Assembly: GCF_027213785.1 (NCBI RefSeq)
Contig: NZ_JAPWGO010000002.1
Location: 62,001 to 126,000, forward strand
DNA length: 64,000 nt
Reading direction: 5' to 3'
Source of the DNA: Limimaricola sp. G21655-S1
Lineage (GTDB): Bacteria > Pseudomonadota > Alphaproteobacteria > Rhodobacterales > Rhodobacteraceae
The notes under the pieces are model-generated. The model was given only the letters and a program-made list of their open reading frames with translations. It was not told the origin of the DNA and did not search any database. Within the stretch, counting starts at the first letter, position 1. Each line of letters opens with the position of its first letter. Below, one piece after another: positions 44,510-60,190 of the stretch. Both the position numbers and the translations under genes were made by a program.

Positions 44510-45516
44510 TCGAGGCCCTCGAGATAGGCGGCGATCGCGTCGATCTGTTCGCCCGTAAGGTGGTCATAGGCGGGCATTTCGGCGCCGGGCTTCCAGGCGC
44601 CCGGGTTGGCGACCCACTTGGCGAAATCCTCGGGGCTCGTGCCGAGCCGCCCGGCGGCGAGCGAATGGCGCGAGCCGACATGGGTGAGATCCGGCCCCAC
44701 CCGCCCCACGGCGGGCGTGCCGCGCACCGCGTGGCAGGCGCCGCAGCCCTGCGACAAAAACAGCGCCGCCCCCCGGGCCGCCTCCGCGCTCGCGGGCGTC
44801 ACTGCCGGGGCGGCCTCGGCCGCGAGCCATGCCTCGAAAGCCTCGGGTTCCATCACCTCGGCCTCGAAGGCCATCCAGGCGTGGCTTTCGCCGCAGAACT
44901 CGGCGCATTGGCCGCGATAGATGCCGGGGCGTTCGGGGCCGAGCGTCATCTCGTTCACCCGGCCGGGAAACATGTCCATCTTGCCGCCCAAGGACGGCAC
45001 CCAGAAGGAATGGATTACCTCCTTGCTGTCGAGCAGGAAGGTCGAGCGGACGCCCGCGGGCAGCCGGATCTCGTTGGCGGTGATGACGGTGCTGCCGTCC
45101 TCTCGCTGATATTCGACGCGCCACCACCACTGCTCCCCGGTCACCCGGATCACCGGCCCGTTGCCGGTGGCGCGCAGGTCGGGCATGATGCTCAACCCAT
45201 AGACCAGCAGCGCGCTCAGCGTCACCGTCGGGAAAGCGATGCCGCCCAGGATCACCAGCCAGTTGGCGATCCGCTGCGAATGCGCCGCCGGGCTGCGCCG
45301 CGTGGCCCAGTAGAACAGCCCGTTCATCCCGAACCACAGCACCACCGCGCCCGCGAGCATGACCCAGAACAGGTCGCCCAGGATGCGCGCGTCCTCGCCG
45401 CCCGGCACCAGCGCCGATTGCCGCCCCTCGCAGGCGGCGAACAGCAGGAACGACAGGAGCGCGAGCCGCGACGGGCCGGGGAGAAAGATGGATCGGGCGC
45501 GGGTCTCGCGGGGCAT
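44506..45516 (-). CDS. ctaC: Cytochrome c oxidase subunit II with C-terminal cytochrome c (caa3 type)
   Basis: 336 aa lipoprotein: lipobox FAAC with Cys at 29, two membrane segments, then the CuA domain with H169, C204, C208, H212 and M215 (QCAEFCGESHAWM). A cytochrome c domain follows with C258-GA-C261-H262. The fused cytochrome is the mark of caa3 oxidases, which take electrons from membrane-bound or small c cytochromes. First gene of the operon. Confidence 0.95.
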   Translation of the reverse strand: MPRETRARSIFLPGPSRLALLSFLLFAACEGRQSALVPGGEDARILGDLFWVMLAGAVVLWFGMNGLFYWATRRSPAAHSQRIANWLVILGGIAFPTVTLSALLVYGLSIMPDLRATGNGPVIRVTGEQWWWRVEYQREDGSTVITANEIRLPAGVRSTFLLDSKEVIHSFWVPSLGGKMDMFPGRVNEMTLGPERPGIYRGQCAEFCGESHAWMAFEAEVMEPEAFEAWLAAEAAPAVTPASAEAARGAALFLSQGCGACHAVRGTPAVGRVGPDLTHVGSRHSLAAGRLGTSPEDFAKWVANPGAWKPGAEMPAYDHLTGEQIDAIAAYLEGLE

Positions 45517-45622
45517 GCAGGGTCCGGGGTCAGCGGCGCTCGCGCCAAGGTCACGACAATGAGAGCGCGCCCCGCGCTGCGGTCAACGTCGCAAGTCGAA
45601 GAAATCGCACCGAGACCTGTGC

Positions 45623-45642
45623 ATTGCGCGACGTCGCGCAAT
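45623..45642. promoter_or_regulatory. 20-bp perfect palindrome between ctaC and the divergent gene
   Basis: ATTGCGCGACGTCGCGCAAT is perfectly symmetrical and ends just before TATGTA (45645-45650), a possible -10 box for the gene starting at 45660. It is a good operator candidate; the regulator is unknown. Confidence 0.5.
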
Positions 45643-45659
45643 CGCTATGTAACGGCGTC

Positions 45660-46349
45660 ATGACATTCGCACATTCCAGCTCCCTCGCCGGGCGTCTTCC
45701 GGTTTCCGGCATCTTCGCAGGCGTCGCGATGCTGCTGTTCGTCGCGGTGGCGCTGGGGCTGTGGCGCGACCAGTTGGACTGGCAGTTCCGCGAGAGCGGG
45801 ATCGTCACCTATGGCTCGGTGCTGCTTCTGGGCCTGATCTCGTGGACGAGCTTCGCGATCGGCAAGGTCCGGCGCGACTGCGCCCGTCCGCTCCTGCGCG
45901 ATCCGCGCGCCGTCTGGCTCGCCATCGGTGCGGGCTTCGCCTTTCTCGCGCTCGACGATCTGGCGCAGATCCACGAGAATCTCGACAAGCTGATCCACAC
46001 CCTCGCGGGGGCCAAGTCGACGGCGCTGACCGACCGGCTCGACGACCTGATCATCGCGGTCTACGGGCTGGTCGGGCTCGCGGTGCTGTGGCTGTGCCGC
46101 TCGGAGCTGCGCCGGTTTCGCGGGCTGCTCCCGTGGCTTGGCTTCGGCTTCGCGCTCCTGGTGCTGCAAGTCGGTCTCGACGCGATCTCGAACCGTGACG
46201 AATGGCTCGACTGGCTCGCCGTCGCCGAGGCGCAAAGACCGCTCTATGCCGACGTGATGACGGTGTTCGAGGAAGGCGCGAAGCTCTTTGCCGAGGCCGC
46301 CTTCCTGTCGGGCTTCGTACTCGCACGGCGCGGATTGCACGACGCCTGA
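45660..46349 (+). CDS. Conserved membrane protein of unknown function
   Basis: 229 aa with five or six membrane segments. Conserved-looking acidic motifs: LALDDLAQIHENLDKL and VFEEGAKLFAEA. I do not recognise the family. It is divergent from ctaC across a 143-base region with a perfect palindrome, and converges on queE. An alternative TTG start at 45624 would lie in the palindrome. Confidence 0.65.
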   Translation: MTFAHSSSLAGRLPVSGIFAGVAMLLFVAVALGLWRDQLDWQFRESGIVTYGSVLLLGLISWTSFAIGKVRRDCARPLLRDPRAVWLAIGAGFAFLALDDLAQIHENLDKLIHTLAGAKSTALTDRLDDLIIAVYGLVGLAVLWLCRSELRRFRGLLPWLGFGFALLVLQVGLDAISNRDEWLDWLAVAEAQRPLYADVMTVFEEGAKLFAEAAFLSGFVLARRGLHDA

Positions 46350-46352
46350 GTT

Positions 46353-47072
46353 TCAGACGCCGCGCTTGTTGCCCCAGATCAGCACGTGCAGCTGCGGCAG
46401 CACGCGCGCCTCGAACCAGCCATCGGCCAGCGCCCGGCTCACCAGCCAATCCATGCGGTCGGTGATGCCGTCCATGTCGATCTCGGCATCCTCGGCCTCG
46501 GGCGGCGGCGGCGTATGGTTGCCGGGCTGGAGGTAGACCGGCAGCTGCGGGTAGCGACCGGCCACCTCGCGGGCCCAGAGATAATCGGTCTCGTCGAACA
46601 CCACGATCTTCAGGATCGCTTCCGCGTCCCCCGCCGCGGCGAGGCACTCGTCGAAGCGCGCCCAGTCCGGCCTCTCGCCCGAGGACGGCGGCTTGGGTGA
46701 CAGGACCAGCGGTTCCAGCCGGGAAAACCAGTCGCGCGCCACCGAGCCTTGGGTCTCCAGCGCGAAGCGGTAGCCCAGCGCGCGCCCGCGCTCGATCAGC
46801 GGGCCGCAATCCTGGATCGCCGGGTTGCCGCCCGAGATGGTGACCGTCAGGGGCCGCCCGCCGGACAGCTCGACGATGCGGTCCCAGACCGCCTTGGTTT
46901 CCATCGCCGCCCATGTGTGGCGGTATTCGCTCTCGACCGCGTGCAGGCTGTCGCACCACGAGCAGCGGTAGTCGCAGCCGCCCAGCCGCACGAAGACCGT
47001 GGCCTGGCCGATCAGCGCGCCCTCGCCCTGGATCGTCGGCCCGAAGATCTCGGAGACGCGCAGCGTGGTCAT
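46353..47072 (-). CDS. queE: 7-carboxy-7-deazaguanine synthase (radical SAM)
   Basis: 239 aa. The radical SAM cluster motif is C-DYR-C-SW-C, with the substrate-recognition N-terminus [15 protein letters not shown] and [11 protein letters not shown]. It converts 6-carboxytetrahydropterin to 7-carboxy-7-deazaguanine, the third step of the queuosine path. The start overlaps the queD stop (ATGA). Confidence 0.94.
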
Positions 47073-47446
47073 GCCGCGCGCCGCCCAGGCTGGGGCCGGT
47101 ACTCGGCCCAGGTCTTCGGCGTCTCCGACACCCGCACCGCGCTGACCTGGTCCCAGCGCGCGGCGGCCCAGTCGTAGATCGCCCGGGCCAGCACCTCTGA
47201 GGTCACGCCGTCATGGCCGAACACCTCGTTGAGATGGCGATGGTCGAGATGATCGTCGATCCAGCGCTTGAGCGGGTCGAGCGCCCGGTAGTCGAGCACG
47301 AAGCCGTTCTCGTCGAGCTCCTCGGACTGCAGCTCCACCTCGGCGATGTAGTTGTGCCCATGCAGCCGGGCGCAGGGGTGGTCGCCCGGCAGGCCGCAGA
47401 GCTGGTGGCTGGCGGAGAAGTGGAATTCCTTGGTGATCGTGTACAT
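47069..47446 (-). CDS. queD: 6-carboxy-tetrahydropterin synthase
   Basis: 125 aa, a pterin-synthase-fold enzyme making 6-carboxytetrahydropterin from dihydroneopterin triphosphate. Zinc ligands are H13 (HFSASHQL region) and the HGHNY pair; the catalytic Cys is in [16 protein letters not shown]. The start overlaps the queC stop by one base (TGATG). Confidence 0.94.
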
Positions 47447-48144
47447 CACTTCGCCCCCCGCGCGACGGCCTCGACCCAGAAATCCGGATCGGCATATTCG
47501 GTGGGGTCCGCGACGCCCGCGAGATGGAACGCCTCGCGCCGCTCGACGCAGGTGCCGCAGCGGCCGCAATGCTTCTCGCCGCCCTTGTAGCAGGACCAGG
47601 TCTCGGCGAAGGGCGTGCCGTGCTTCGCACCCTCGGTCACGATCGCCGATTTCGGTTCGTGCACGAAGGGGGTGTAGAGCCGGACATCGGCGTAGCCATC
47701 GAGCGCTTGGCGCTGCATCGCGTCGAAGGCTTCGGTGAAGGCCGGGCGGCAGTCGGGGTAGATGAAGTGGTCGCCGCCATGCACCGCCGTGGCCACCGCA
47801 TCGGCCTTCTGCGCCGCAGCTAAGCCGAAGGCCACGGTCAGCATGATCGCGTTGCGGTTCGGCACCACGGTCGTCTTCATGGTGTCCTCGGCATAATGCC
47901 CGTCGGGCACCTCGACATCGTCGGTGAGCGCCGAGCCCGACAGATGCGCGCCGATCGAGCGCATGTCGATCAGGTGGAACGGCACGCCGAGCCGCTCGGC
48001 GGCGGCGCGGGCGAAGTCCAGCTCTTTCGAGTGGCGCTGGCCGTAGTCGAAGGAGATGAGGCCGGCCAGCTCGTTCTCGGCGGCGACCTTGTGGGCGAGC
48101 GACACGCTGTCGAGCCCGCCAGAGCAGATTACATAGGTTTTCAT
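47446..48144 (-). CDS. queC: 7-cyano-7-deazaguanine synthase (preQ0 synthase)
   Basis: 232 aa. The ATP pyrophosphatase loop is SGGLDSVS and the zinc site uses the C-terminal cysteines CYKGGEKHCGRCGTC. It turns 7-carboxy-7-deazaguanine into preQ0. The ATG at 48144 has an AAGGA ribosome binding site eight bases upstream that forms part of the preQ1 riboswitch pseudoknot. First of queC-queD-queE. Confidence 0.95.
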   Translation of the reverse strand: MKTYVICSGGLDSVSLAHKVAAENELAGLISFDYGQRHSKELDFARAAAERLGVPFHLIDMRSIGAHLSGSALTDDVEVPDGHYAEDTMKTTVVPNRNAIMLTVAFGLAAAQKADAVATAVHGGDHFIYPDCRPAFTEAFDAMQRQALDGYADVRLYTPFVHEPKSAIVTEGAKHGTPFAETWSCYKGGEKHCGRCGTCVERREAFHLAGVADPTEYADPDFWVEAVARGAK

Positions 48145-48152
48145 CAGATCCG

Positions 48153-48184
48153 TCCTTGTTTTGACCGGGTAGGCTGCGACCGGT
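48153..48184 (-). promoter_or_regulatory. preQ1-I riboswitch in front of queC
   Basis: On the minus strand: stem ACCGG, loop UCGCAG, a short segment, C then CCGGU, an A-rich linker CAAAACAA and GGA. This follows the Thermoanaerobacter preQ1-I aptamer closely: the same L1 loop UCGCAG and the same AAAACAAGG tail, whose G residues pair with loop C residues to make the pseudoknot. The final AAGGA is the queC ribosome binding site, so ligand binding should block translation of the preQ1 pathway genes. Confidence 0.8.
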
Positions 48185-48238
48185 GCCCGGACCATTCCGG
48201 GCGACCCTCACTAGCGCATCCGGGCGGGCCGGGAAAGA

Positions 48239-50293
48239 TCAGCCTTCGGGCACGTTTTCGCGAAGCTCCTCGAGCCAAACCGCCGCGCTCGCATCCGACG
48301 GCGCGCGCCAGTCGCCGCGTGGGCTGAGCGAGCCACCGGCCGAGACCTTGGGCCCGTTCGGCATGGCCGAGCGCTTGAACTGCGCGAAGCCGAAGAAACG
48401 GGAGACGAAGACCTCCAGCCACTTGCGGATCTCCGCGAGGTCGTAGGCGCGGCGCTTTTCCTGCGGGAAGCCGATCGGCCAGAGCCCCTTCTCGGCATCG
48501 TGCCAGGCGTGCCATGCGAGGAAGGCCACCTTCGAAGGTGGCAGCCCGTAGCGCATGGTGTGGAACAGGAAGAAGTCGTGCAGCGCGTAGGGCCCGATCC
48601 GGTCCTCGGTCGATTGCAGCTCCTCTTCCTCGGATTGCGGCACCAACTCGGGCGAGATCTCCGTATCCAGGATCGCCTGCAGCACGTCGGTGGTGGCGGC
48701 CTCGTCGAACTGCCCGGACTGGATCGACCAGCGGATCAGGTACTGGATCAGCGTCTTGGGCACGCCGGAATTGACGTTGTAATGGCTCATCTGGTCGCCG
48801 ACGCCATAGGTGCACCAGCCCAGCGCCAGCTCGCTCAGATCCCCGGTGCCGACGACGATACCGCCATTCTGATTGGCCAGCCGGAACAGGTAATCGGTCC
48901 GGAGCCCCGCCTGCACGTTCTCGAAGGTGATGTCATAGACCGGATCGCCGCCGGAGAACGGGTGTTCCATGTCCTTCAGCATCTGCCGCGCGGCGGGCCG
49001 GATGTCGATCTCGGCCGCCTCGATACCCATTGCGCGCATCAGCTTCCAGGCGTTCGTCTTGGTGGCATCCCCGGTGGCGAAGCCGGGCATGGTGTAGCCG
49101 AGGATCGTGTCGCGCGGCAGGCCCATGCGGTCGCAGGCCTTGGCCGCAACGATCAGCGCGTGGGTGCTGTCGAGCCCACCGGAAATGCCGATCACCAGCT
49201 TGGGGTTGCCGATCGATTCCATCCGGCGGCGCAGCCCTTCGACTTGGATGTTGAAGGCCTCGTAGCAGTCGAGATCGAGATGGCTTTCGCGGTTCGGCAC
49301 GTAAGGGTAGCGGCGGATCGGCCGGATCAGCCCGGCATCCTCGAAATGCGGCCGATGCGCGAAGCGGATGCGCCGGAAGGCCGGGGCCCGCCCCTTGCCC
49401 GCGTCGTTGAAGGTGCCGGTGCGGATCCGCTCGTTCACGAGCCGCTGCGTGTCGACATCGGCCATGCACAGCTCGGGCTCCACGTCGAAGCGGCCCGACT
49501 GCGCCAGCAGGTCGCCCATCTCGTAGACCGCGCCCTGCCCGTCCCAACTCAGATCGGTGGTGCTCTCGCCGGGGCCCGCGGCGGAATAGGCATAGGCCGC
49601 GAAGCTGCGCATGCCGTGGCTTCGGCACAGCACGTGGCGGTCGTCGGATTTGCCGATCACGATGTTCGAGGCCGAGAGGTTGGTGAGGATCAGCGCGCCT
49701 TCGGTGGCCGCCTGACTCGACGGCGGCACGGGGGCCCAGAAATCCTCGCAGATCTCCGTGTGGAAGATCAGGCCGGGCAGATCCTCTGCCTCGAAGATCA
49801 GGTCGGTGCCGAAGGGCACCTCCTCTCCCCCGAGCCGCATGGCGCGACCCGTGACGCCGCGCCCTTCGGCGAACCAGCGCTTTTCGTAGAATTCGCGGTA
49901 ATTCGGCAGGAAGCTCTTGGGCACCACGCCGAGAATGCGCCCGCGCGAGATCACCACGGCGCAGTTGTAAAGCCGCCCCTCATGGCGCAGCGGCGCGCCG
50001 ATCAGCAACACCGGCGCGAGCTTGGCGCTGGCCTCGGTGATACGCATCACTGCCGCCTCGACCGCGTCGAGAAGCGCGGTCTGCATGTGCAGGTCGTCGA
50101 TCGCGTAGGAGGAGACGCAGAGCTCGGGGAACACCACGAGATCGGCCTTGGCATCATGCGCGCGTCGCGCCTCGGCGATCACCGCGTCGCGGTTGAACGA
50201 CACGTCGGCAGGCCGCACGCGCGGCGTTGCCGTGGCGACACGGACGAAACCGTGCCGGTGCAGGGAATGAAAGGCGTCTGGCCCCTTGCGCAT
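48239..50293 (-). CDS. nadE: Glutamine-dependent NAD+ synthase
   Basis: 684 aa. The N-terminal nitrilase-type glutaminase has [15 protein letters not shown] (Glu), [14 protein letters not shown] (Lys) and HTEICEDFW (Cys). The C-terminal synthetase has the P-loop [11 protein letters not shown] and [27 protein letters not shown]. It makes NAD+ from deamido-NAD+ at the end of NAD synthesis. The ATG at 50293 has GAGGTG upstream. Confidence 0.95.
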
Positions 50294-50376
50294 GTTCGTC
50301 ACCTCGTCTTCTCCGGCGGTTCGGGCGCGCCGACCATGCCGCGTCGCCCACGGATAGGCCAGCCCTCCCCCGGGTT

Positions 50377-50967
50377 TCAGCCGCCTCCGATCATTCCGAA
50401 GCTCACGCCGACCGCCACGATGCTCAGCAGGAAACCCAGCCCCATCAGCAGCCCGTCGCGCAGCGTCATGGCGAGGCCGAAGGCCGCGATCGCCGCCATC
50501 GGCGCGCTGGACGCGAAGGGCACGAGTTCCAGGGGCGGCACGGTCAAGCACAGGAGCAGCACCGCGATACCCGCGATACGCGACGCCTTGGGCCCGGTCA
50601 GCGCTTCAAAGCGCCCGTGAAACCACCGATCGAGCCAACGGCCGATGCCGCGCAGCTTGTCGGCCGCCTTGGCGAGCTTGTCGCCCGAGACCGAGCGGCG
50701 TTCGAGGAACCCCGGCAGCCACATCTCGTCGCGCTGCATCACGATCTGCACCGCGAAGATCGTGATGATCAACGCCAGGAGCGTCGGCACGCCGGGCACG
50801 CCGCCGATCGGCGAAATCTCGATCAGCGCCGGCACGAAGAGAAACGGGCCGAAGCCGCGATCCCCGAGCGCCGAGGTCACGTCACCCACGGTGGCGCGGT
50901 CGTCATCGCGCCCCTCCTGCTCAAGCCGGTCGAGCACATCCTCGACCGCGCGCGATCTCTCGCCCAT
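50377..50967 (-). CDS. exoD: ExoD-family membrane protein
   Basis: 196 aa with four membrane segments. The ExoD pattern is visible as [27 protein letters not shown] and [18 protein letters not shown]. ExoD affects exopolysaccharide production and alkali sensitivity in rhizobia; the biochemical role is unknown. It precedes nadE on the same strand. Confidence 0.8.
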
Positions 50968-51038
50968 GCGCCTCTCCCAGCTCGGCTGCTTCTGAGCAGC
51001 AACACGGAGAGCGCGAAGACGTTCCGGAGCGGAACGGC

Positions 51039-52967
51039 TCAGCCGCGCCTGGTCTGCGCCCGGTCGTGCCCGGCCGGCGGCGTGGCGACGCCCAGCCTGC
51101 CGCGATCCTGCGGCAGCGGGTCGGCCAGCAGCCGTTCGCGCAGCGCCCGCGCATGACGTCGCGCCTCGGGGCGCGAGCGGCGCGCCGCCTCAAGCAGCTC
51201 GATCACCTCGGATGGCGCGCTGCCGGGGCGGATGCCCGGCGGCAGCATCGCGAGGATCTCACGCAGGCGCGGCGCCAGTGGAAGGGCATCCGCGGAGGCC
51301 TCGGTCGCGCCGCCCATGCGCTGCGCCGCCTCGGCATCGCGGGACAGGACCAGCCCGGCGAGCCCCGCCCGCCGCGCCGCGTGGATCGCCGCGCGCGCCG
51401 CATCGGCCCCGGCCGCGTCCGGCAGCGGCAGCCGCGCCACCACCGGGCCGCCGATCACCCGTGCCAGCGCCGCCGCCATGGCGAGCCGTGCGCGCGGACC
51501 GACATCCTGCGGGCCGCCCGCCCCTTCGGGTGCGCAATCGAAGGCAGCGGCGTCGCGGGGCGCGATCCCCGGGGCGCCGCGCAGGGATCCGGTGCCGAAG
51601 ACGTGGCGATTGGCCGCCTCGATCTGCGCCTCGGTGAAACCGAGCTGCTCCAGCAGCCCCATCCCCTGCCCCGGCATCGCCGCGGCGTCGAGGCCGAGCC
51701 GCGATGCGCAGAACGCCGTGCCCAGCCGCCAGGGCGTGACCGCCATGCGCAGGTCGCGCGCCTCGGGGAGCGCCGCCTCGATCCGGGCGATCTGCTGCGC
51801 GTCGAGCCCGCGCGCGCGCAGCGCCGCATGGTCGATGCCCGGCGCGGCGGCGAGACTTCCATGCCCGGCCACGTGACGGATCAATGCCTCGATCCGGTCG
51901 CCGCCGTATCCCTGAGCGGCAAGCCCGGCGCGCAACTCCGGCGCGGCCTCGCGGCAATGTCCCCGCTCGGTCTCCATCTCGATACGCAGCTCGGCCAAGG
52001 GCGCGAGCGGGTCGTCCCCGAGCCCGAGGATCGCCGCCCGAGCGCCAAGTGGCGCGATCGCGATCCGGGGGGTCGCCGGCGCATCGGGGGCGGCCTGCTC
52101 GTCGATCCCGGCCCAGAGCCCGCGCGCACGCTCGATAGCCGCACGGGCAGCGTGCGGCACCGGCTTGGCTTGGAGCCGCGCCAGACCGGCGCGCGCATGC
52201 GCATCGCCCGCCCCCGGCGCAAGCCCGAGCTCCGCTGCCATGGTCGCTCGCGCCGCCTCGGCCAGAGCCCCCATCGCTGCCGCCGCGATGCGCCCTTCGC
52301 GCGTCGCATGTCCCAGGCCGAGCCGCATCAGCGCACCGCCCAAACCCGCCAGTCCAAGGTCGCCCGGCACGGCCTTGCGCCCGGCAGCCGCGGCGAGAGC
52401 CAGTGTCCAGAGCTGGACCGCATGAACCAGCGCCGCCACCGCGACCTCGCCATCCTCGACGAAGCAGCGGAGGTCGAGCACGACGCTCGGCGCGGCGACG
52501 CGCGGATCGGTCTCGAAATCGAAAGCAAGCGGCGCGCCGTCGCGGACCGCTTCGGCGAGGCACCTCACCTGCGCGTCTTCCGCCTGCGCCATCCGCACCC
52601 GCAGCGGCGAGGCCGCAGGCTCGGACGCGCCTATGCGCCCGCTCCAGAGCGCGGGATCGATGACCGCGATACGGTGCATGACCATCTGGCGCATCTCGTC
52701 GGCCCAGATGCCGAGGCAGGTGGGGTCCGTCAGAAGGCCGGAAGCCTTGGCGCCCGAGGAGAGCCGCGGCGTCAGCGCATCGACGGCATCCGCGAGGCCG
52801 GTCTCGCCCCGCGCCCCCGGCACCTGCGCGGCAAAGGCGCGCGCGGCGCGCAGCGTCCAGCCGGCGGGCACCTGCATGGCGGTGCCGTCCTCGAGCCGGA
52901 TGCGGCGGGTCGGCATCCCGGCAAGCGGGGCCTGTCCCGGCATCGTATAGCGCCGTTCGATCTGCAT
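51039..52967 (-). CDS. NrdJ-derived protein lacking the ribonucleotide reductase core
   Basis: 642 aa. The ends and the second half follow alphaproteobacterial class II ribonucleotide reductase NrdJ. It starts MQIERRYTMPGQAP (NrdJ: MKIERRFT...). Residues 185-250 match the NrdJ stretch around LWT, LGxAxxGxLLMxxGL and MAAELG. GHGSLAAAPGI (368-378), LGFTEAQIEAANRHVFG (442-458), GAPGI and FDCA (476-479) are all kept. Missing are the NPCSEY-type catalytic block, the glycine-radical/cobalamin-linked cysteines, the TINMPN loop (now RLPLPD) and the Cys-rich tail. The ATG at 52967 is fixed by homology. It could be a regulator or structural partner of NrdJ, or an evolving remnant. Its frame is intact and strongly GC3-biased, so it is not a simple pseudogene. 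Confidence 0.7.
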   Translation of the reverse strand: MQIERRYTMPGQAPLAGMPTRRIRLEDGTAMQVPAGWTLRAARAFAAQVPGARGETGLADAVDALTPRLSSGAKASGLLTDPTCLGIWADEMRQMVMHRIAVIDPALWSGRIGASEPAASPLRVRMAQAEDAQVRCLAEAVRDGAPLAFDFETDPRVAAPSVVLDLRCFVEDGEVAVAALVHAVQLWTLALAAAAGRKAVPGDLGLAGLGGALMRLGLGHATREGRIAAAAMGALAEAARATMAAELGLAPGAGDAHARAGLARLQAKPVPHAARAAIERARGLWAGIDEQAAPDAPATPRIAIAPLGARAAILGLGDDPLAPLAELRIEMETERGHCREAAPELRAGLAAQGYGGDRIEALIRHVAGHGSLAAAPGIDHAALRARGLDAQQIARIEAALPEARDLRMAVTPWRLGTAFCASRLGLDAAAMPGQGMGLLEQLGFTEAQIEAANRHVFGTGSLRGAPGIAPRDAAAFDCAPEGAGGPQDVGPRARLAMAAALARVIGGPVVARLPLPDAAGADAARAAIHAARRAGLAGLVLSRDAEAAQRMGGATEASADALPLAPRLREILAMLPPGIRPGSAPSEVIELLEAARRSRPEARRHARALRERLLADPLPQDRGRLGVATPPAGHDRAQTRRG

Positions 52968-53471
52968 GCAGGTGTTCCCGTTTCGCCGCGTGAGCCGCGG
53001 GCCGCAGGCCCCCGGTTCGGCGAAACTGAGCAGCGCGGCGGGTACGGTCAACGCGGTGCCGGGGTGGCGCGAACGAATATCGCGACACCGCCTCGGCGCC
53101 CTTGGATTCGCCCACCGCAGTTCACCGCTCTCCCACAGGGTTTTCCACAGCCCCCACCGGCCCATGAAGAACGCCATATGCCCAGTCCGCGTTGGGCTTT
53201 GAGGGCGCCTGACGCAGGGACATATGCACCGCTTGAGCACGGCCTGAAAATTATCCACAGGGGGTGAGAAACGGGCCCTGAACTTGTCCACCGCAAGGCG
53301 TGACATCGGGGCCACAGGGGTCTTCTGGGGTCGTTTTGGGCCGGCGATCTCTTCGATGGCGCGATAGGGGCCGCAACCCGGCGTCACCCGGAGTTAGGGG
53401 GATTCGCCACGAGGCCCGAAACCAGAGGGACTGGCCCCTCCGGGTCACCGAGAATGGAAATGAGAGGAGAT
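52968..53471. other. Intergenic region with DnaA-box-like sites
   Basis: About 500 bases without a gene between the NrdJ-derived gene and tRNA-Pro. TTATCCACA at 53251-53259 is a perfect DnaA box; TTTTCCACA at 53141-53149 and TTGTCCACC at 53284-53292 are near-matches. I see no AT-rich unwinding region or dnaA/dnaN/parA neighbour that would make this an origin. It is probably a regulated promoter region for the minus-strand gene. Confidence 0.5.
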
Positions 53472-53548
53472 TGGTCGGGGCGGCAGGATTCGAACCTGCG
53501 ACCCTCTGTTCCCAAAACAGATGCGCTACCAGGCTGCGCTACGCCCCG
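53472..53548 (-). tRNA. tRNA-Pro(GGG)
   Basis: Minus strand: acceptor CGGGGCG pairs with CGCCCCG, followed by A and encoded CCA. The anticodon arm CTGTT-TTGGGAA-CAG gives anticodon GGG, and the T-arm is CGCAGGTTCGAATCCTGCG. 77 bases. Confidence 0.96.
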
Positions 53549-53599
53549 GACCGCCGCCCTTCTAGGCTGGCGCGCGCCCGGGTGCAAGCGCCGCCGTGA

Positions 53600-54073
53600 T
53601 CATTCGCAGGGATCGGCTGCCGGCGTCTCGTCGCTGCCGATCGAAGGGTGGCGCAGCGTGTCGCCGGGCGCGATGCCGAGCCGTTCCGCCATGCCGCCAT
53701 TGAGCTCCAGAACGTACTGGATGTCGGTGCCACCCGGGATCGGGGTTTCGTCGAGGGGCTGCGCGCGCTCGTGGATGCTGCGCACGGTCCCATCGGGGCC
53801 GGCGAAGATCATGTCGAGCGGAATGAGCGTGTTGCGCATCCAGAAGGACACGGCCTGCGGCTCTTCATAGACGAAGAGCATGCCCGTCATGCGCGGCATC
53901 TCAGGGACGTTCATCAGCCCCTGCGCCCGCTCGGCGGCATCATCGGCCACGGCCACGGTGAAGGCCGCCTGCCCCCAATCGCCCCGTATCGTCACCCGGT
54001 CGGGCGCGCAGGTCGCGGCCTGCAGGGCCAGCGGCGCCGAGACGGCGAAGGCCGCCAGCAGCAGCGCCTTCAT
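53600..54073 (-). CDS. DUF192 family exported protein
   Basis: 157 aa with a signal peptide ending LQAATC. DUF192 features: [33 protein letters not shown] and PLDMIF. Structures of the family show a small beta-barrel; the function is unknown. Its start overlaps the stop of the upstream cold-shock gene (ATGA). Confidence 0.85.
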
Positions 54074-54651
54074 TCCTCGTCCCCGTTCCCATCCTCGGGC
54101 TTCGCGGCCCCCGGCTGGCGCAGCGCCGCGTCCCAAGTGAGGATTTCCGTCGCCATTCGCCCGCGCTTGCCCTGGATCACCCGCAGCGACACCGCCTCGC
54201 CGGGTTCGAGATCCGCGAGGCCGGACGCCCGCAGCACCTCGACATGGAGGAATATGTCGTCGCCGGCGCCGAAGATGTTGGCGAAACCGAAGCCCTTGGC
54301 CTTGTCGAACCACTTGATCCGCGCCGGTTCGAGCGGACGGCTCGCGAGATATTCGGGATCGAACTCCTGGAAATCGGCCAGCGGCACCGCGGCGGCGGTC
54401 GCCGGCGCCTCGAGCGACAGGATGGCGGCGGCCTGGATGCCGCGCTCGGTGCGATGGGCAAGGATGCGTATCCGCGCGCCATCGGCCACCGAGTTCTGGC
54501 CATAGTTGCGCAGTACATTGGCGTGCAGCAGGATGTCGGAGCCGCCGTCATCGGGCACGATGAAGCCGAATCCCTTCGCCGGATCGAACCACTTGACGTG
54601 TCCCGCGATCTCGAGGCGGTCCTCCGTCTGCTTGTCCAGCATGTCGTTCAT
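54070..54651 (-). CDS. Double cold-shock-domain protein
   Basis: 193 aa with two nucleic-acid-binding OB folds. The RNP1 motifs are KGFGFIVPD in the first and KGFGFANIF in the second, each followed by an RNP2-like DILLH or DIFLH. The two-domain form is typical of alphaproteobacteria. GGAGGCGGAG precedes the ATG at 54651. About 100 bases separate it from pdxH upstream on the same strand, which may carry its own promoter. Confidence 0.92.
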   Translation of the reverse strand: MNDMLDKQTEDRLEIAGHVKWFDPAKGFGFIVPDDGGSDILLHANVLRNYGQNSVADGARIRILAHRTERGIQAAAILSLEAPATAAAVPLADFQEFDPEYLASRPLEPARIKWFDKAKGFGFANIFGAGDDIFLHVEVLRASGLADLEPGEAVSLRVIQGKRGRMATEILTWDAALRQPGAAKPEDGNGDEE

Positions 54652-54751
54652 CTCCGCCTCCAGCAGCCTTGTCCCGGCCCGTCCGATTTTTTTCGTCTGT
54701 GCAGCACAGTCCGAGGGTGGCTACAAGCATCGAATTTCATTCCGTGTGAAA

Positions 54752-55360
54752 TCACGGTCCTAAACGTAACACTTCGAACGGATGGTTCAGCGTCGGTCTC
54801 GACCATTTGTACCGGTCGTGAAGCCGATGTGCGCCATCTGCCCAAAATTCGATCTCGAGCGGTCTGAGCCGATATCCACCCCAGAAGGCCGGCCGCGGCG
54901 GATCCTCGCCAAGCTCGGCATCGAGTCGCGCCACCTCCGCCTCGAGCGCCGCGCGCGAGGCGATCGCACGACTTTGAGGCGAAGCCCAGGCCCCCACCCT
55001 GCTCTCACGCGGCCGTGATCTAAAATAGGCGTCGGCGATCGGGCCGTCCTCGCGTTCCACCAACCCGCGCACCCGGATCTGTCGGCGCAGCGACTTCCAG
55101 TGCATGGCGAAAGCGGCGCGGCCATTGCTGTCGATCTGGCGCGCCTTGGCGCTTTCGTAGTTCGTGTAGAACACGAACGCATCGCTCTCGATGCTCTTGA
55201 GCAGTACGATTCTCACATCCGGCAGACCCTCGGAATCAACCGTGGCCAGCGCGATCGCGTTGGGATCCGAAGGCTCGTGGCGCCCGGCTTCCTCAAGCCA
55301 GAGCCTTGCAATATTCAGCGGATCATCTCCGGCGAAGATGCCGACACGCGGGTCCATCAT
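54752..55360 (-). CDS. pdxH: Pyridoxamine 5'-phosphate oxidase
   Basis: A 202-aa FMN enzyme forming pyridoxal phosphate. Conserved segments: [41 protein letters not shown]-like [28 protein letters not shown] and the C-terminal RLHDRYKW. Length is normal. Divergent from fabI across 165 bases. Confidence 0.94.
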
Positions 55361-55525
55361 ACAAACTCACTCACTCGTATTCCGACAGTATACTCCATTC
55401 TCAACCATTTAGTCCCCTCTCCTTCCGCTCTAAGCATGACGTCACGTAGGCCCGTGGCCTTGATGCCATGCTCCCTATCGCCTACACCGGATCGAAACGG
55501 CGCCGGATCGGCAAGAGGGACATTC

Positions 55526-56332
55526 ATGACATCGCAGTTGATGGCGGGAAAACGCGGCCTCATCATGGGGCTCGCCAACGACAAGTCGATCGCCTGGGGC
55601 ATCGCCAAGGCCTGCGCCGGTGCCGGCGCCGAGCTGGCCTTCTCCTATCAGGGCGAGGCGCTGAAGAAGCGGGTCGGCCCGCTCGCGGCGGAGGTCGGCT
55701 CCGACATCGTGCTGCCCTGCGACGTCGGCGACGAGGACAGCATCGACGCGCTGTTCACCGCGCTGCAGGAGAAATGGGGCAAGCTCGACTTCATCGTCCA
55801 CGCCATCGGCTTTTCCGACAAGTCCGAGCTGCGCGGCCGCTATGTCGACACCTCGAAGCAGAACTTCCTGATGTCGATGGACATCTCGGTCTGGTCCTTC
55901 ACCTCGGTGGTGAAGCGCGCGGCGCCGATGATGACCGAGGGCGGCTCCTGCCTGACGCTGACCTATTACGGCGCCGAGAAGGTGATGCCGCACTACAACG
56001 TCATGGGCGTTGCCAAGGCGGCTCTGGAGGCGAGCGTGCAGTACCTCGCGGAGGATCTGGGCCGCGACGCGATCCGGGTCAACGCGATCTCTGCCGGCAC
56101 CATCAAGACGCTGGCCGCCTCCGGCATCGGTGATTTCCGTTACATCATGAAGTGGAACGAGTATAATTCGCCACTGCGCCGCACGGTCACCCAGGAGGAG
56201 GTCGGAAAATCCGCCCTCTACCTCTTGTCGGATCTGGGCAGCGCGGTTACCGGCGAGGTCCATCACGTCGATGCGGGCTACCACGTGATCGGCATGAAGA
56301 ACCCCGACGCGCCCGACATCACGAAAGGCTGA
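55526..56332 (+). CDS. fabI: Enoyl-[acyl-carrier-protein] reductase (NADH)
   Basis: A 268-aa short-chain-dehydrogenase enzyme that completes each fatty-acid elongation round. NAD-binding [15 protein letters not shown], active site [13 protein letters not shown] (Tyr and Lys six apart) and [15 protein letters not shown] are all as in FabI. GAGGGA six bases upstream supports the ATG at 55526. gpt follows after five bases. Confidence 0.95.
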
Positions 56333-56337
56333 GAGCG

Positions 56338-56844
56338 ATGACCGACCGACTGCCGCATGAAAAGGGCTTCCACGTATCCTGGGACCAGCTGCACCGCGAC
56401 AGCCGCGCCTTGGCCTGGCGGCTCGACGGCCGGGGCCCCGACGCCGAGGGCGCCTGGAAGGCGGTGGTCGCGATCACCCGCGGTGGCATGGCGCCGGCGA
56501 TGATCGTCGCCCGCGAGCTCGGCATCCGCACCGTCGACACGATCTCGGTCAAGTCCTACGAGCACCAGAATCAGGCCAGCGCCAAGGTGCTGAAGGCCCC
56601 CGACGCCGAGATGATGGGCGACGGCACCGGCATCCTCGTGGTCGATGACCTCGTCGATACCGGCCGCACGCTGGAGCTGGTGCGCCAGCTCTATCCCAAC
56701 GCCCATTTCGCCACCGTCTATGCCAAGCCGATGGGCAACGGCCAGGTCGACACCTATGTCACCGAGGTGAGCCAGGACACCTGGATCTTCTTCCCGTGGG
56801 ACATGGCCCTGCAATATGTCGAGCCCTATCGCGGCAAGGACTGA
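56338..56844 (+). CDS. gpt: Xanthine-guanine phosphoribosyltransferase
   Basis: 168 aa purine salvage enzyme. The PRPP loop is [15 protein letters not shown] and the N-terminal part has [21 protein letters not shown]. Co-transcribed with fabI by spacing. Confidence 0.93.
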
Positions 56845-56863
56845 GCCGCTCCGGCACCTGCAC

Positions 56864-56890
56864 AACGGCCCCGCCATCGGCGGGGCCGTT
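56864..56890 (+). terminator. Hairpin terminator after gpt
   Basis: AACGGCCCCGCC-ATC-GGCGGGGCCGTT is a perfect 12-bp stem with a three-base loop. The T-run is missing, as is usual in GC-rich Rhodobacterales. Confidence 0.75.
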
Positions 56891-56995
56891 CGCGTTCCGG
56901 CCCGCCCCATCGGGCGTATCGCGCGATGCGGGCCCGGCGATTGCGCCCGCATCGCCGCGGGTCTAGCGTCCCCTGCGACACCCCAGGGAGACGAC

Positions 56996-58174
56996 ATGAG
57001 CAGCAGCCGCACCGCATCGACCTTTCCACCTCCCGTGATGGAGGCCCGCCGCTGGATCGAGGGGGTCAGCTTCCCGCCCGAGCGGCCGCTCCTGAACGTC
57101 AGCCAGGCCGCGCCGGTCGATCCGCCGCCCGAGCCGCTGCGACGCGCCATGGCCGAGATCGTCATGCAGGATGCCAGCGCCCATCTCTATGGCCCGGTCC
57201 TCGGCCTGCCGGACCTGCGCGAGGAAATCGCGCGGCACTGGAGCGAAGCCTATCGCGGCCGCGTCGTGCCCGAGCAGGTGGCGGTCACCTCGGGCTGCAA
57301 CCAGGCCTATTGCGCCGCGATCTCGGCGCTTTGCGGCGAAGGTTCCGAGGTGATCCTGCCCAGCCCGTGGTACTTCAATCACCGCATGTGGAACGACATG
57401 GCCGGGGTGCGGACCCTGCCGCTCGAGACCGGCCCGACGCTGCTGCCCGACCCCGAGGCCGCCGCGGCGCTGATCACGCCCGCGACCCGTGCCATCGTGC
57501 TGGTGAGCCCCAACAACCCCGGCGGCGTCGAATACCCCGCCGAGCTGCTCGCCGCCTTTCGCGACCTGTGCCGCGACCGCGGCCTCGCGCTGATCCTCGA
57601 CGAGACCTATCGCGACTTCGACAGCCGCGAGGGACCGGCGCATGAGCTGTTCTCGGACCCGGACTGGGCCGAGGTGCTGGTGCAGCTCTATTCCTTCTCC
57701 AAGGCCTACCGCCTCACCGGCCACCGGGTCGGCGCCGTCACCGCGAGCACTGCGCGGATCGCGCAGATGGAGCGGTTCCTCGACACGGTGACGATCTGCC
57801 CGACCAGCCTCGGCCAGAAGGCGGCCCTGTGGGGCATGCGCAACTTGGGCGACTGGCTGGCGGGCGAGCGCGCCGAGATCCTCTCGCGCCGCCGCGCCAT
57901 GGAACGGAGCTTCGCGCGGCTCGCGCCGCAGGGCTGGCGGCTGATGGGCTGCGGCGCCTATTTCGGCTGGATCGAGCATCCCCATGCCGAGCCTTCCGAC
58001 GCGCTGGCGCAGCGGCTGGTGCACGAGGCGGGCGTGCTGCTGCTGCCGGGCACGATGTTCACGCCCGAGGGCTCCGAGGCGGGCCGGCGGCAGCTGCGTA
58101 TCGCCTTCGCCAATGTCGACGCCACCGGCATCGCCAAGCTGGAAACCCGGCTCGCGGCGCTGCCCGCGCGCTGA
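56996..58174 (+). CDS. Class I/II PLP-dependent aminotransferase
   Basis: 392 aa. The PLP lysine is in YSFSKAYRLTGHRVG, preceded by ILDETYRDF (Asp) and SPNNPGG. It resembles aspartate/aromatic-type aminotransferases in family I gamma. Substrate is unknown. GGGAG before the ATG at 56996 fixes the start. Confidence 0.88.
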   Translation: MSSSRTASTFPPPVMEARRWIEGVSFPPERPLLNVSQAAPVDPPPEPLRRAMAEIVMQDASAHLYGPVLGLPDLREEIARHWSEAYRGRVVPEQVAVTSGCNQAYCAAISALCGEGSEVILPSPWYFNHRMWNDMAGVRTLPLETGPTLLPDPEAAAALITPATRAIVLVSPNNPGGVEYPAELLAAFRDLCRDRGLALILDETYRDFDSREGPAHELFSDPDWAEVLVQLYSFSKAYRLTGHRVGAVTASTARIAQMERFLDTVTICPTSLGQKAALWGMRNLGDWLAGERAEILSRRRAMERSFARLAPQGWRLMGCGAYFGWIEHPHAEPSDALAQRLVHEAGVLLLPGTMFTPEGSEAGRRQLRIAFANVDATGIAKLETRLAALPAR

Positions 58175-58291
58175 GCACGACCCCGGGCGGGGCCCTCGCC
58201 GCGGACGGGGCCCGGCCCCATCCGCTTGCACGGCCCCGCCCGCTTGCCTATTCAACGGCTCACGCCGAAGGGGCGCGACAGGGAGACCGCA

Positions 58292-60190
58292 ATGGCATCG
58301 AGCAAGGGCAACCGCGTATTCGTCTGGATCATCCTGATCCTGCTCTTCGTGGGCCTGATCGGCTTCGGGGCCACCGGGCTCACGGGCAACGCGACCCGGC
58401 TCGGCACGGTCGGCGACAAGGATCTGGAAATCCAGAGCTACGCCAACGCGCTGCAAAGTCGCATCCGCGCGCTCGAAAGCCAGACCGGCTCGGCGGTGAG
58501 CTTCGCGCAGGCGCAGCAATTCGGCCTCGACCGGGCGGTGCTGGGCCAGCTCGTCACCGAGCGGGTGCTCGATGCCGAGGCCGAGGCGCTGGGCCTTTCG
58601 GTGGGCGACGCCCGTGTGCGCGACCAGGTGCTGGCGATCCCGGCCTTTCAGGGACTGAACGGCAGCTTCGACCGCGACGCCTATCGCGACGCGCTGTCCC
58701 GCAACGGCCTCAGCGTGGCCGAGTTCGAGCAGAGCCTGCGCGAGGGCGAGGCCCGCGCCCTGCTGCAGACGGCGGTGGTCGGCGGCGTCGCCGCGCCCGA
58801 CGCCCATGTCGAGGCGCTGGTCGAGTTCCTGATGTCCCGGCGCGACATCACCTGGGCGCCGGTGACGCTCGGCGCCGCGCCCGCGCCCGCCGCCGATGAC
58901 GGCCGCCCGCGGGTGATCCTGCCCGAGATCCTGCTCGACGCCGAGATCCCCGCCCCCACCGAGGCCGAGATCGAGGCGCGCTACGCCGCCGCGCCCGAGG
59001 CCTATACCGCGCCCGAGATCCGGCAGATCAGCTATGTCTGGCTGCGCCCCGAGGACGTGGCCGAAGAGATCGAGATCGACAACGCGCAGGTGCGCGAACT
59101 CTACGAGCAGCGCCTCTCCGAATACGTGCAGGAGGAGCGCCGGCTGGTCGAGCGGCTGGTCTATCCCAACGCCGAGGCCGCCGAAACGGCGCTGGCCCGG
59201 CTCGAGGCGGGCGAGGCCGGCTTCGAGGATCTGGTCGAGGCGCGCGGGCTGAGCCTCGAGGCGGTGGATCTGGGCGACGTGGCCGAGGCCGATCTGGACG
59301 GCGCCGCCGAGACGGTCTTCGCCGCAGAGGCCGGCGACGTGGTGGGCCCGGTCGAGACCGATCTCGGCCCTGCTCTGTTCCGCGTCAACGCCGTGCTCGC
59401 CGCCGAGGAGGTACCCTTCGAGGCGGTCGAGGACGACCTGCGCGCCGAGCTGGCCCAGGCCCGCGCCCGCCGGGAGATCGAGCGCCGCAGCCAGGAGATC
59501 ACCGACCTGCTCGCGGGCGGCGCCGCGCTCGAGGATCTGGCCGAGCGCGCCGACATGGAGCTGGGCACGATCGAATGGTCCGAGGAGGTCTCCGACGGCA
59601 TCGCCGCCTATGCACCGTTCCGCGAGGCGGCCGCCGCCGCGCAGGAGGGCGGTTTCCCCGAGCTTCTGGGCTTCGAGGATGGCGGCGTCTTCGCGCTGCG
59701 TCTCGACGGCGTGACGCCGCCCCAGCTGCGTCCGCTCGACGAGGTGCGCGCGCAGGTGATCGCCGATGTCGAGGCCGAGACCCGGGCGCGGCTGCGCGGC
59801 GAGCGGGCCGAGGCGCTGGCGGCCGAGATCGCCGGCGGCGCGAGCTTCGCCGAAGCGGGCCTCGCCCCGCAGGAGGCGCAGAACCTCACCCGCCGCGCCT
59901 TCGTCGAGGGCACCTTCCCCGGCTTCATCCGCGAGATCTTCGAGATGAAGGAAGGCGAGACCCGCGCGATCACCGGCGACGGCTTTGCCGCCGTGGTCCG
60001 GCTCGATGCCGTGGCGCCGCCCGCCGAGGAGGATGCCGGCGTCGCGGCCGAGCGTCAGGCGATCGAGGAGCGGCTCGGCACCGGCATCGCGCAGGACATC
60101 TACACCGCCTATGCCAGCGCCGTGCAGGCCCGCACCGAGATCCGCATCGACGACACCGCCGTCCAGGCGGTCCATTCCTCCTTCAGGTAA
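58292..60190 (+). CDS. ppiD: PpiD-like periplasmic peptidyl-prolyl isomerase / chaperone
   Basis: 632 aa. One N-terminal membrane anchor (VFVWIILILLFVGLIGFGATG), a SurA-N-like segment (residues about 35-170), a parvulin-type PPIase domain with diverged active site (around 260-380) and a long helical acidic C-terminus. It helps outer-membrane and periplasmic proteins fold at the Sec translocon. GGGAG precedes the ATG. trpE follows after seven bases. Confidence 0.88.
   Translation: MASSKGNRVFVWIILILLFVGLIGFGATGLTGNATRLGTVGDKDLEIQSYANALQSRIRALESQTGSAVSFAQAQQFGLDRAVLGQLVTERVLDAEAEALGLSVGDARVRDQVLAIPAFQGLNGSFDRDAYRDALSRNGLSVAEFEQSLREGEARALLQTAVVGGVAAPDAHVEALVEFLMSRRDITWAPVTLGAAPAPAADDGRPRVILPEILLDAEIPAPTEAEIEARYAAAPEAYTAPEIRQISYVWLRPEDVAEEIEIDNAQVRELYEQRLSEYVQEERRLVERLVYPNAEAAETALARLEAGEAGFEDLVEARGLSLEAVDLGDVAEADLDGAAETVFAAEAGDVVGPVETDLGPALFRVNAVLAAEEVPFEAVEDDLRAELAQARARREIERRSQEITDLLAGGAALEDLAERADMELGTIEWSEEVSDGIAAYAPFREAAAAAQEGGFPELLGFEDGGVFALRLDGVTPPQLRPLDEVRAQVIADVEAETRARLRGERAEALAAEIAGGASFAEAGLAPQEAQNLTRRAFVEGTFPGFIREIFEMKEGETRAITGDGFAAVVRLDAVAPPAEEDAGVAAERQAIEERLGTGIAQDIYTAYASAVQARTEIRIDDTAVQAVHSSFR

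Follow-up and report, generated by a model that had tools for sequence, protein, structure and literature searches.

A minus-strand gene of Limimaricola sp. G21655-S1 is the remnant of a long class II ribonucleotide reductase (RNR) gene, nrdJ, and its predicted 642-aa product is a pseudoenzyme: an enzyme homologue with its catalytic residues lost, retained by selection. The gene is under purifying selection and is not a neutral pseudogene. A half-size product without an active site, preserved by selection, suggests a new non-catalytic job. The gene and its parts lie as follows in the window, the whole 64,000-nucleotide stretch analysed.

51039..52967, minus strand: coding sequence of the putative 642-aa NrdJ-derived pseudoenzyme (stop codon 51039–51041)
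52605..52967, minus strand: shortened N-terminal region, residues 1–121 (MQIERRYT...), from the alignment to 12 full NrdJ
52212..52490, minus strand: former-barrel piece, residues 160–252 (LWT, LGLAGLGGALM, MAAELG), aligned to 7b9p 488–597
51534..51962, minus strand: best-kept part, residues 336–478, the helical insertion of long NrdJ, with our alignment-based boundaries
51330..51533, minus strand: former barrel end on the finger-loop side, residues 479–546, from the 7b9p match and the alignment
51042..51329, minus strand: basic, genus-specific C-terminal tail, residues 547–642, standing where long NrdJ has its IscU-like and zinc-finger region

Retained and lost parts of the NrdJ-derived protein

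The minus-strand frame runs from 52967 to 51039 with 642 codons plus a stop, begins with MQIERRYT and has no internal stops. At 76% GC, where the opposite strand of the gene is also open for 733 codons, an open frame alone is little proof; conservation was therefore tested separately, and it held. A phmmer search of the PDB matched residues 160–252 and 305–546 to 7b9p (E 6.8e-42), and a profile of six genus sequences reached 7b9q at E 1e-71. The NCBIfam model NF005736 matched at E 9.2e-39 with 132.8 bits, far below its cut-off of 1737. These scores put the homology to NrdJ far above chance. The PF02867 barrel domain gave no match in the 642-aa protein at E up to 1, the sole Pfam match was a sub-threshold SAM_SMF (20.8 bits versus a cut-off of 27), and no family other than NrdJ was matched in the Pfam, NCBIfam and profile searches.

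We aligned the five complete genus sequences with 12 full-length NrdJ from other genera (L012 was left out, its start not fitting the search word). MQIERRYT, LWT, LGxAxxGxLLM, MAAELG, GHGSLAAAPGI and FDCA, among others, stand in the same order as in the 12 full-length enzymes. Which NrdJ cysteines are catalytic is established knowledge, and of the 16 cysteines invariant in the full enzymes, C788 alone is a cysteine in all five genus sequences. C199 (HACFIQ), C447, C464, C487 and six C-terminal cysteines are absent from all five; the C476 column (NPCSEY) holds a cysteine in one sequence (G154), within a stretch otherwise hardly aligned. Between the N-terminus and the insertion, most of the core has been deleted or can no longer be recognised: in block 220–330, four genus sequences keep none of the 80 invariant columns and the G107 sequence keeps 14. 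Block 1001–1090 keeps none of its 77 invariant columns in any of the five. In long class II enzymes the C-terminus bears an IscU-like domain as well as a zinc finger (PMC9669993; for the zinc finger also PMC5704485); neither is present in the genus protein. The predicted genus protein stands outside class II RNRs in active site, barrel domain and C-terminus. An earlier note, made from the window alone, had claimed an intact 642-aa frame with NrdJ motifs in order, descent from NrdJ, and absence of the active-site cysteines, the NPCSEY-type block and the Cys tail; the alignment and PDB matches agree on every point, and the catalytic cysteine set whose recovery would have spoken against it, C199 and C487 included, did not reappear. 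The composition of the protein has shifted, with Ala now at 23% and Lys at 0.5% (the trpE line of this comparison, sliced out of frame, was set aside).

The best-kept part corresponds to full-enzyme block 704–846, numbered on L026 and with boundaries set by us; its 143 residues align gap-free. Identified as the helical insertion by sequence only, it retains 35–43 of 75 invariant columns per genus sequence; 27 columns survive in every one of the five, and 19 of those lie in the second half. Another 26 of the 75 are changed in all five, ten to an identical new residue (for example N747>D, N779>T, Q780>P, T782>R, C825>F and E831>R), and these ten look as if they had been retuned once and then held. 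By eye, the insertion has two similar helical units, at residues about 346–385 and 435–480. In the short NrdJ the block is largely gapped. Residues about 336–478 are probably the HUG domain, which in the R. sphaeroides NrdJ dimer reportedly embraces the other subunit.

The tail of the genus protein is basic, with a pI above 11, and is not present in full NrdJ. Acquisition of the tail from another gene was considered and rejected, as tail matches beyond the window's own were weak and confined to two of 394 family genomes (G042 and G283). The open frames that hold those two (L119 and L120; E 2e-4 and 7e-4) are short, at 174 and 203 codons.

Distribution, locus and selection in Limimaricola

The earlier note would have been undercut by orthologues confined to this strain. 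The reduced gene was found in all eight Limimaricola genomes, one of which (G152) shows only its two ends. Complete open copies encode 642 (G000, the window's genome), 642 (G153), 614 (G151), 599 (G154) and 668 aa (G107). The G150 copy is in two open pieces, each at the end of a contig; G152 gave no match in a first search, and the start and end of its gene were later located at two contig edges. The G149 copy has one frameshift. In that genome frames or matches are split in three places, at the reduced gene, at nadE and at the short RNR (L053, L062/L063, L071/L072), a pattern that suggests poor assembly quality and not three broken genes. In G150 (L052, 3910–7248), DUF192 and the reduced gene stand about 3.3 kb apart, an N run included; in the window's genome the distance is about 0.6 kb. 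L. soesokkakensis, at 91% identity, is the closest relative from a named collection.

Across the family, the window protein was matched in 143 of 149 genomes (the window's own and one congener included) and in all 132 of good quality. Outside the genus, among the matches listed, open frames are at least 1,182 aa long except in G041 (1,031) and G069 (872, at a contig edge); a weak match in G119 is not among the matches listed. The short 758-aa NrdJ was matched at E 1e-120 or better in 133 of the 149, so that two class II enzymes, one long and one short, seem to be the usual state in the family sample. RNR matches in G145, G032 and G127, at 54–57% identity, run over one stop. A wider spread of the reduced form was sought in 394 family genomes and rejected: only G000, G107, G034 and G125 matched at E 1e-46 or better, the last two with full-length frames, in a search that would miss a reduced copy no closer to the window protein than full NrdJ.

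A gpt-fabI-pdxH-cspA-DUF192 block adjoins the reduced gene, and the same block lies beside full-length nrdJ in six of 12 loci from other genera (L075, L079, L081–L084). The reduced gene is, on this evidence, the former long nrdJ, still at the ancestral nrdJ locus. In a short-RNR tree of seven of the eight genus genomes (G149 left out), G107 is nearest the outgroups with support of 0.76. Its copy (L010) is the most complete of the reduced ones, keeping WAYGIDG and parts of blocks 111–165 and 220–330 that are lost elsewhere; it may represent an intermediate, and the pattern fits stepwise shrinkage.

The earlier note had called for a search for full-length nrdJ elsewhere in the genome; none was found in any of the eight Limimaricola genomes. 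Each holds one PF02867 gene (in two pieces in G149), which encodes the short 758-aa NrdJ; the one in the window's genome scores 603.9 bits against a TIGR02504 (NrdJ_Z) cut-off of 399.95. In that genome the long-NrdJ family picks up only the reduced gene and the short NrdJ, apart from a trace at E 0.0135.

We estimated ω (dN/dS) by maximum likelihood with our own script (GY-type, F3x4). Pairs with dS well above 2 were set aside as saturated, as most pairs other than the two used were. For the reduced gene, the pair G000–G153 gave ω of 0.191 (dS 0.225; 2ΔlnL 77.7 versus ω of 1) and the pair G000–G151 gave 0.145 (dS 1.69; 2ΔlnL 206.4). Substitutions between G000 and G153 number 30, 30 and 75 by codon position, and the coding frame has the lowest ω of the six frames; the next, at 0.25, is the antisense frame sharing wobble positions. 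Sixty neutral simulations returned ω of 0.60–1.62. Seven neighbouring genes lie at 0.00–0.09 in G000–G153 and 0.03–0.145 in G000–G151 (queC in G000–G107 was set aside, since the gene fell outside the fetched stretch and the wrong frame was compared), and the short RNR at 0.007 and 0.023, respectively. The reduced gene is thus well above all seven neighbours in the closer pair and equals the highest, pdxH at 0.145, in the other. By segment, ω in G000–G153 is 0.11 for the N-terminus, 0.13 for the insertion side, 0.28 for the middle, 0.29 for the barrel end (2ΔlnL only 3.5) and 0.28 for the tail (2ΔlnL 5.2), with 0.16 in the tail core. Gaps not divisible by three in the nucleotide alignment mostly look like split pairs summing to multiples of three (2+1 and 4+11, for example), and we take them as alignment ambiguity because both frames are open. 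Neutral evolution and broken frames, the marks of a pseudogene, were not seen at ω of 0.14–0.19 with all five complete copies open, the G149 frameshift being the one break. Retention by selection, as the earlier note had supposed, is borne out genus-wide, and its proposed dN/dS check, run here within the genus on the two least saturated pairs, came out non-neutral.

The promoter of the reduced gene

Upstream of the reduced gene lies a cluster of putative DnaA boxes, read with general NrdR and DnaA consensus sequences that we take to apply here.

53133..53318, minus strand: DnaA-box-like cluster upstream of the reduced gene, with four CTGTGG repeats on one strand
53133–53150: double DnaA-like box within the cluster
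53141–53149, plus strand: DnaA-like box TTTTCCACA
53251–53259, plus strand: DnaA-like box TTATCCACA

The window contains just two TTWTNCACA sites, both in the cluster, against 0.39 expected; a count of two is reached in five of 100 shuffles. The cluster is also the one place with four CTGTGG on the same strand inside 400 bases, both across the window and across 400 kb of G151; in the latter, three other stretches of that size hold three. A double box, CTGTGGAWAA-CTGTGG, stands at the reduced-gene promoter in all eight genomes and elsewhere only before dnaB in G151 (L102, near 10421) and G154 (L133, near 2250). A TTWTCCACA box precedes dnaB in the seven genomes read (loci including L134–L140; the G107 dnaB upstream was set aside), and TGTGGATAA stands upstream of the short RNR in the seven read (G149 left out). 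The cluster has the putative boxes of a DnaA-regulon promoter, and the reduced gene, dnaB and the short RNR form a possible small DnaA-linked set. In Caulobacter, DnaA directly regulates NrdB expression (PMC3193534).

Upstreams of full nrdJ genes look different. Eight of 11 carry a site with at most four mismatches to the NrdR-like palindrome ACACAATATATAGTGT and the other three have five (L074, with a start not fitting the search word, and L018, with 210 bases upstream only, were left out of this count); the NrdR-like box is absent from seven of seven genus promoters (7–8 mismatches). These are mismatches to one 16-mer from one locus, and a single weak box carries little weight: 100 shuffles give a best of 3–4 mismatches for ten of the 11 full genes and of five for the remaining one. 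Same-strand CTGTGG repeats number 3–4 in genus promoters versus 0–1 before full nrdJ genes. The short RNR has a four-mismatch NrdR-like site in five of seven genus genomes.

Two other explanations of the upstream region were rejected: a replication origin at the cluster, as GC skew keeps its sign in the window and over 400 kb around the G151 copy, and a riboswitch, the sole Rfam match in 44000–60000 being a tRNA. That tRNA gene (53475–53548, minus strand) lies just upstream of the cluster.

Candidate functions and known parallels

Protein–protein binding through the retained insertion is the most likely function to be read from the domain content. The reading we favour, tentatively and at rather less than even confidence, is that the former long nrdJ now encodes a selected, dead protein of about 600–670 aa that would bind via its insertion; its most economical partner would be the short NrdJ, whose dimer the pseudoenzyme would stabilise or gate while replication genes under DnaA control are expressed. 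The data above show the reduction of long nrdJ in Limimaricola to a catalytically dead protein kept by selection; that the product would be a binding protein acting through the helical insertion is inferred. The choice of partner, drawn from the retained domain, is the weakest step; the short NrdJ is proposed because no other PF02867-type RNR remains and because it is a homologue of the lost partner without the insertion, with a DnaA-type box before its own gene as well. In a more specific version, which we consider unlikely, a reductase without chemistry would have kept its partner-embracing domain and would act as a clamp in trans that binds and regulates the clamp-less short NrdJ, its control having passed from NrdR-type to DnaA-type so that its appearance coincides with replication. 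Against the favoured reading, all five sequences have changed at 26 of the 75 invariant insertion positions: the surface has been retuned and may no longer embrace a partner. The ω values relative to the neighbours, the altered composition and the G149 frameshift, the last in an assembly with other split genes, also count against it.

Three roles had been suggested in the earlier note. Regulation of NrdJ stands only without a long NrdJ as target, none having been found in the genus, where each genome has one short 758-aa PF02867 enzyme. Oligomer partnering becomes a more specific proposal, since the insertion, the best-kept part, has no counterpart in the short NrdJ. Nucleotide sensing gained no support, the core between N-terminus and insertion being mostly gone.

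Slow decay offers a somewhat unlikely account of the same data: the short NrdJ would suffice, and the long gene would have been eroded by in-frame deletions to a jobless product, with any constraint residual, for instance against toxic misfolding. The stepwise shrinkage from about 1,220 aa in other genera to 668 and then 599–642 aa would suit it, as would an ω above that of the neighbours in the closest pair, the compositional drift and the G149 frameshift. However, ω of 1 is strongly rejected at 0.14–0.19, all five complete copies are open, those of G150 and G152 are broken by contig ends alone, and both the promoter cluster and the tail are conserved and lineage-specific. These last features, the tail being foreign to full NrdJ and the promoter DnaA-like, together with the retuned insertion positions common to all five sequences, would also suit a new homo-oligomer or scaffold role apart from the short NrdJ, for example with another replication or nucleotide-metabolism partner; we think this unlikely, and with no other family matched, no particular partner is indicated. 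Conversion of the tandem helical units into a DNA- or RNA-binding module seems improbable. In four of five genus sequences the insertion is no longer negative in net charge, the tail is basic, and there is a match to the SAM domain of DprA at E 4.7e-4, but that Pfam match is under the cut-off, the G154 insertion is still at net −7, and Arg and Ala enrichment may merely follow high GC.

The reduced protein offers a natural test of the role of the helical insertion when catalysis is gone, and it may tie replication control directly to dNTP synthesis. No bacterial class II RNR pseudoenzyme was found in the open-access literature searched, where Limimaricola came up together with ribonucleotide reductase only in a paper on a sponge phage. 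The Limimaricola protein would be such a pseudoenzyme with a visible series, from the full enzyme of other genera through the 668-aa G107 form to the window form.

With the long dimeric class II NrdJ (7b9p/7b9q; NF005736) the reduced protein shares descent, locus, N-terminal motif, barrel pieces and helical insertion. Long NrdJ, at about 1,220 aa, has catalytic cysteines, an NPCSEY block, an IscU-like domain and a zinc finger, whereas the genus protein has none of the four, is about half as long and falls far below the family cut-off. The short NrdJ_Z-type enzyme of the same genome (758 aa) shares a homologous barrel and an upstream DnaA-type box with the reduced protein but differs in its complete active site, Cys tail, very strong constraint and lack of the helical insertion. 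Herpesviruses have RNR large-subunit homologues without reductase activity, such as M45 of mouse cytomegalovirus. The parallel lies in the role: in both, an RNR homologue would be kept for binding and not for catalysis. The herpesvirus proteins are viral, of class I and have host signalling partners, whereas the Limimaricola protein is bacterial and derived from class II.
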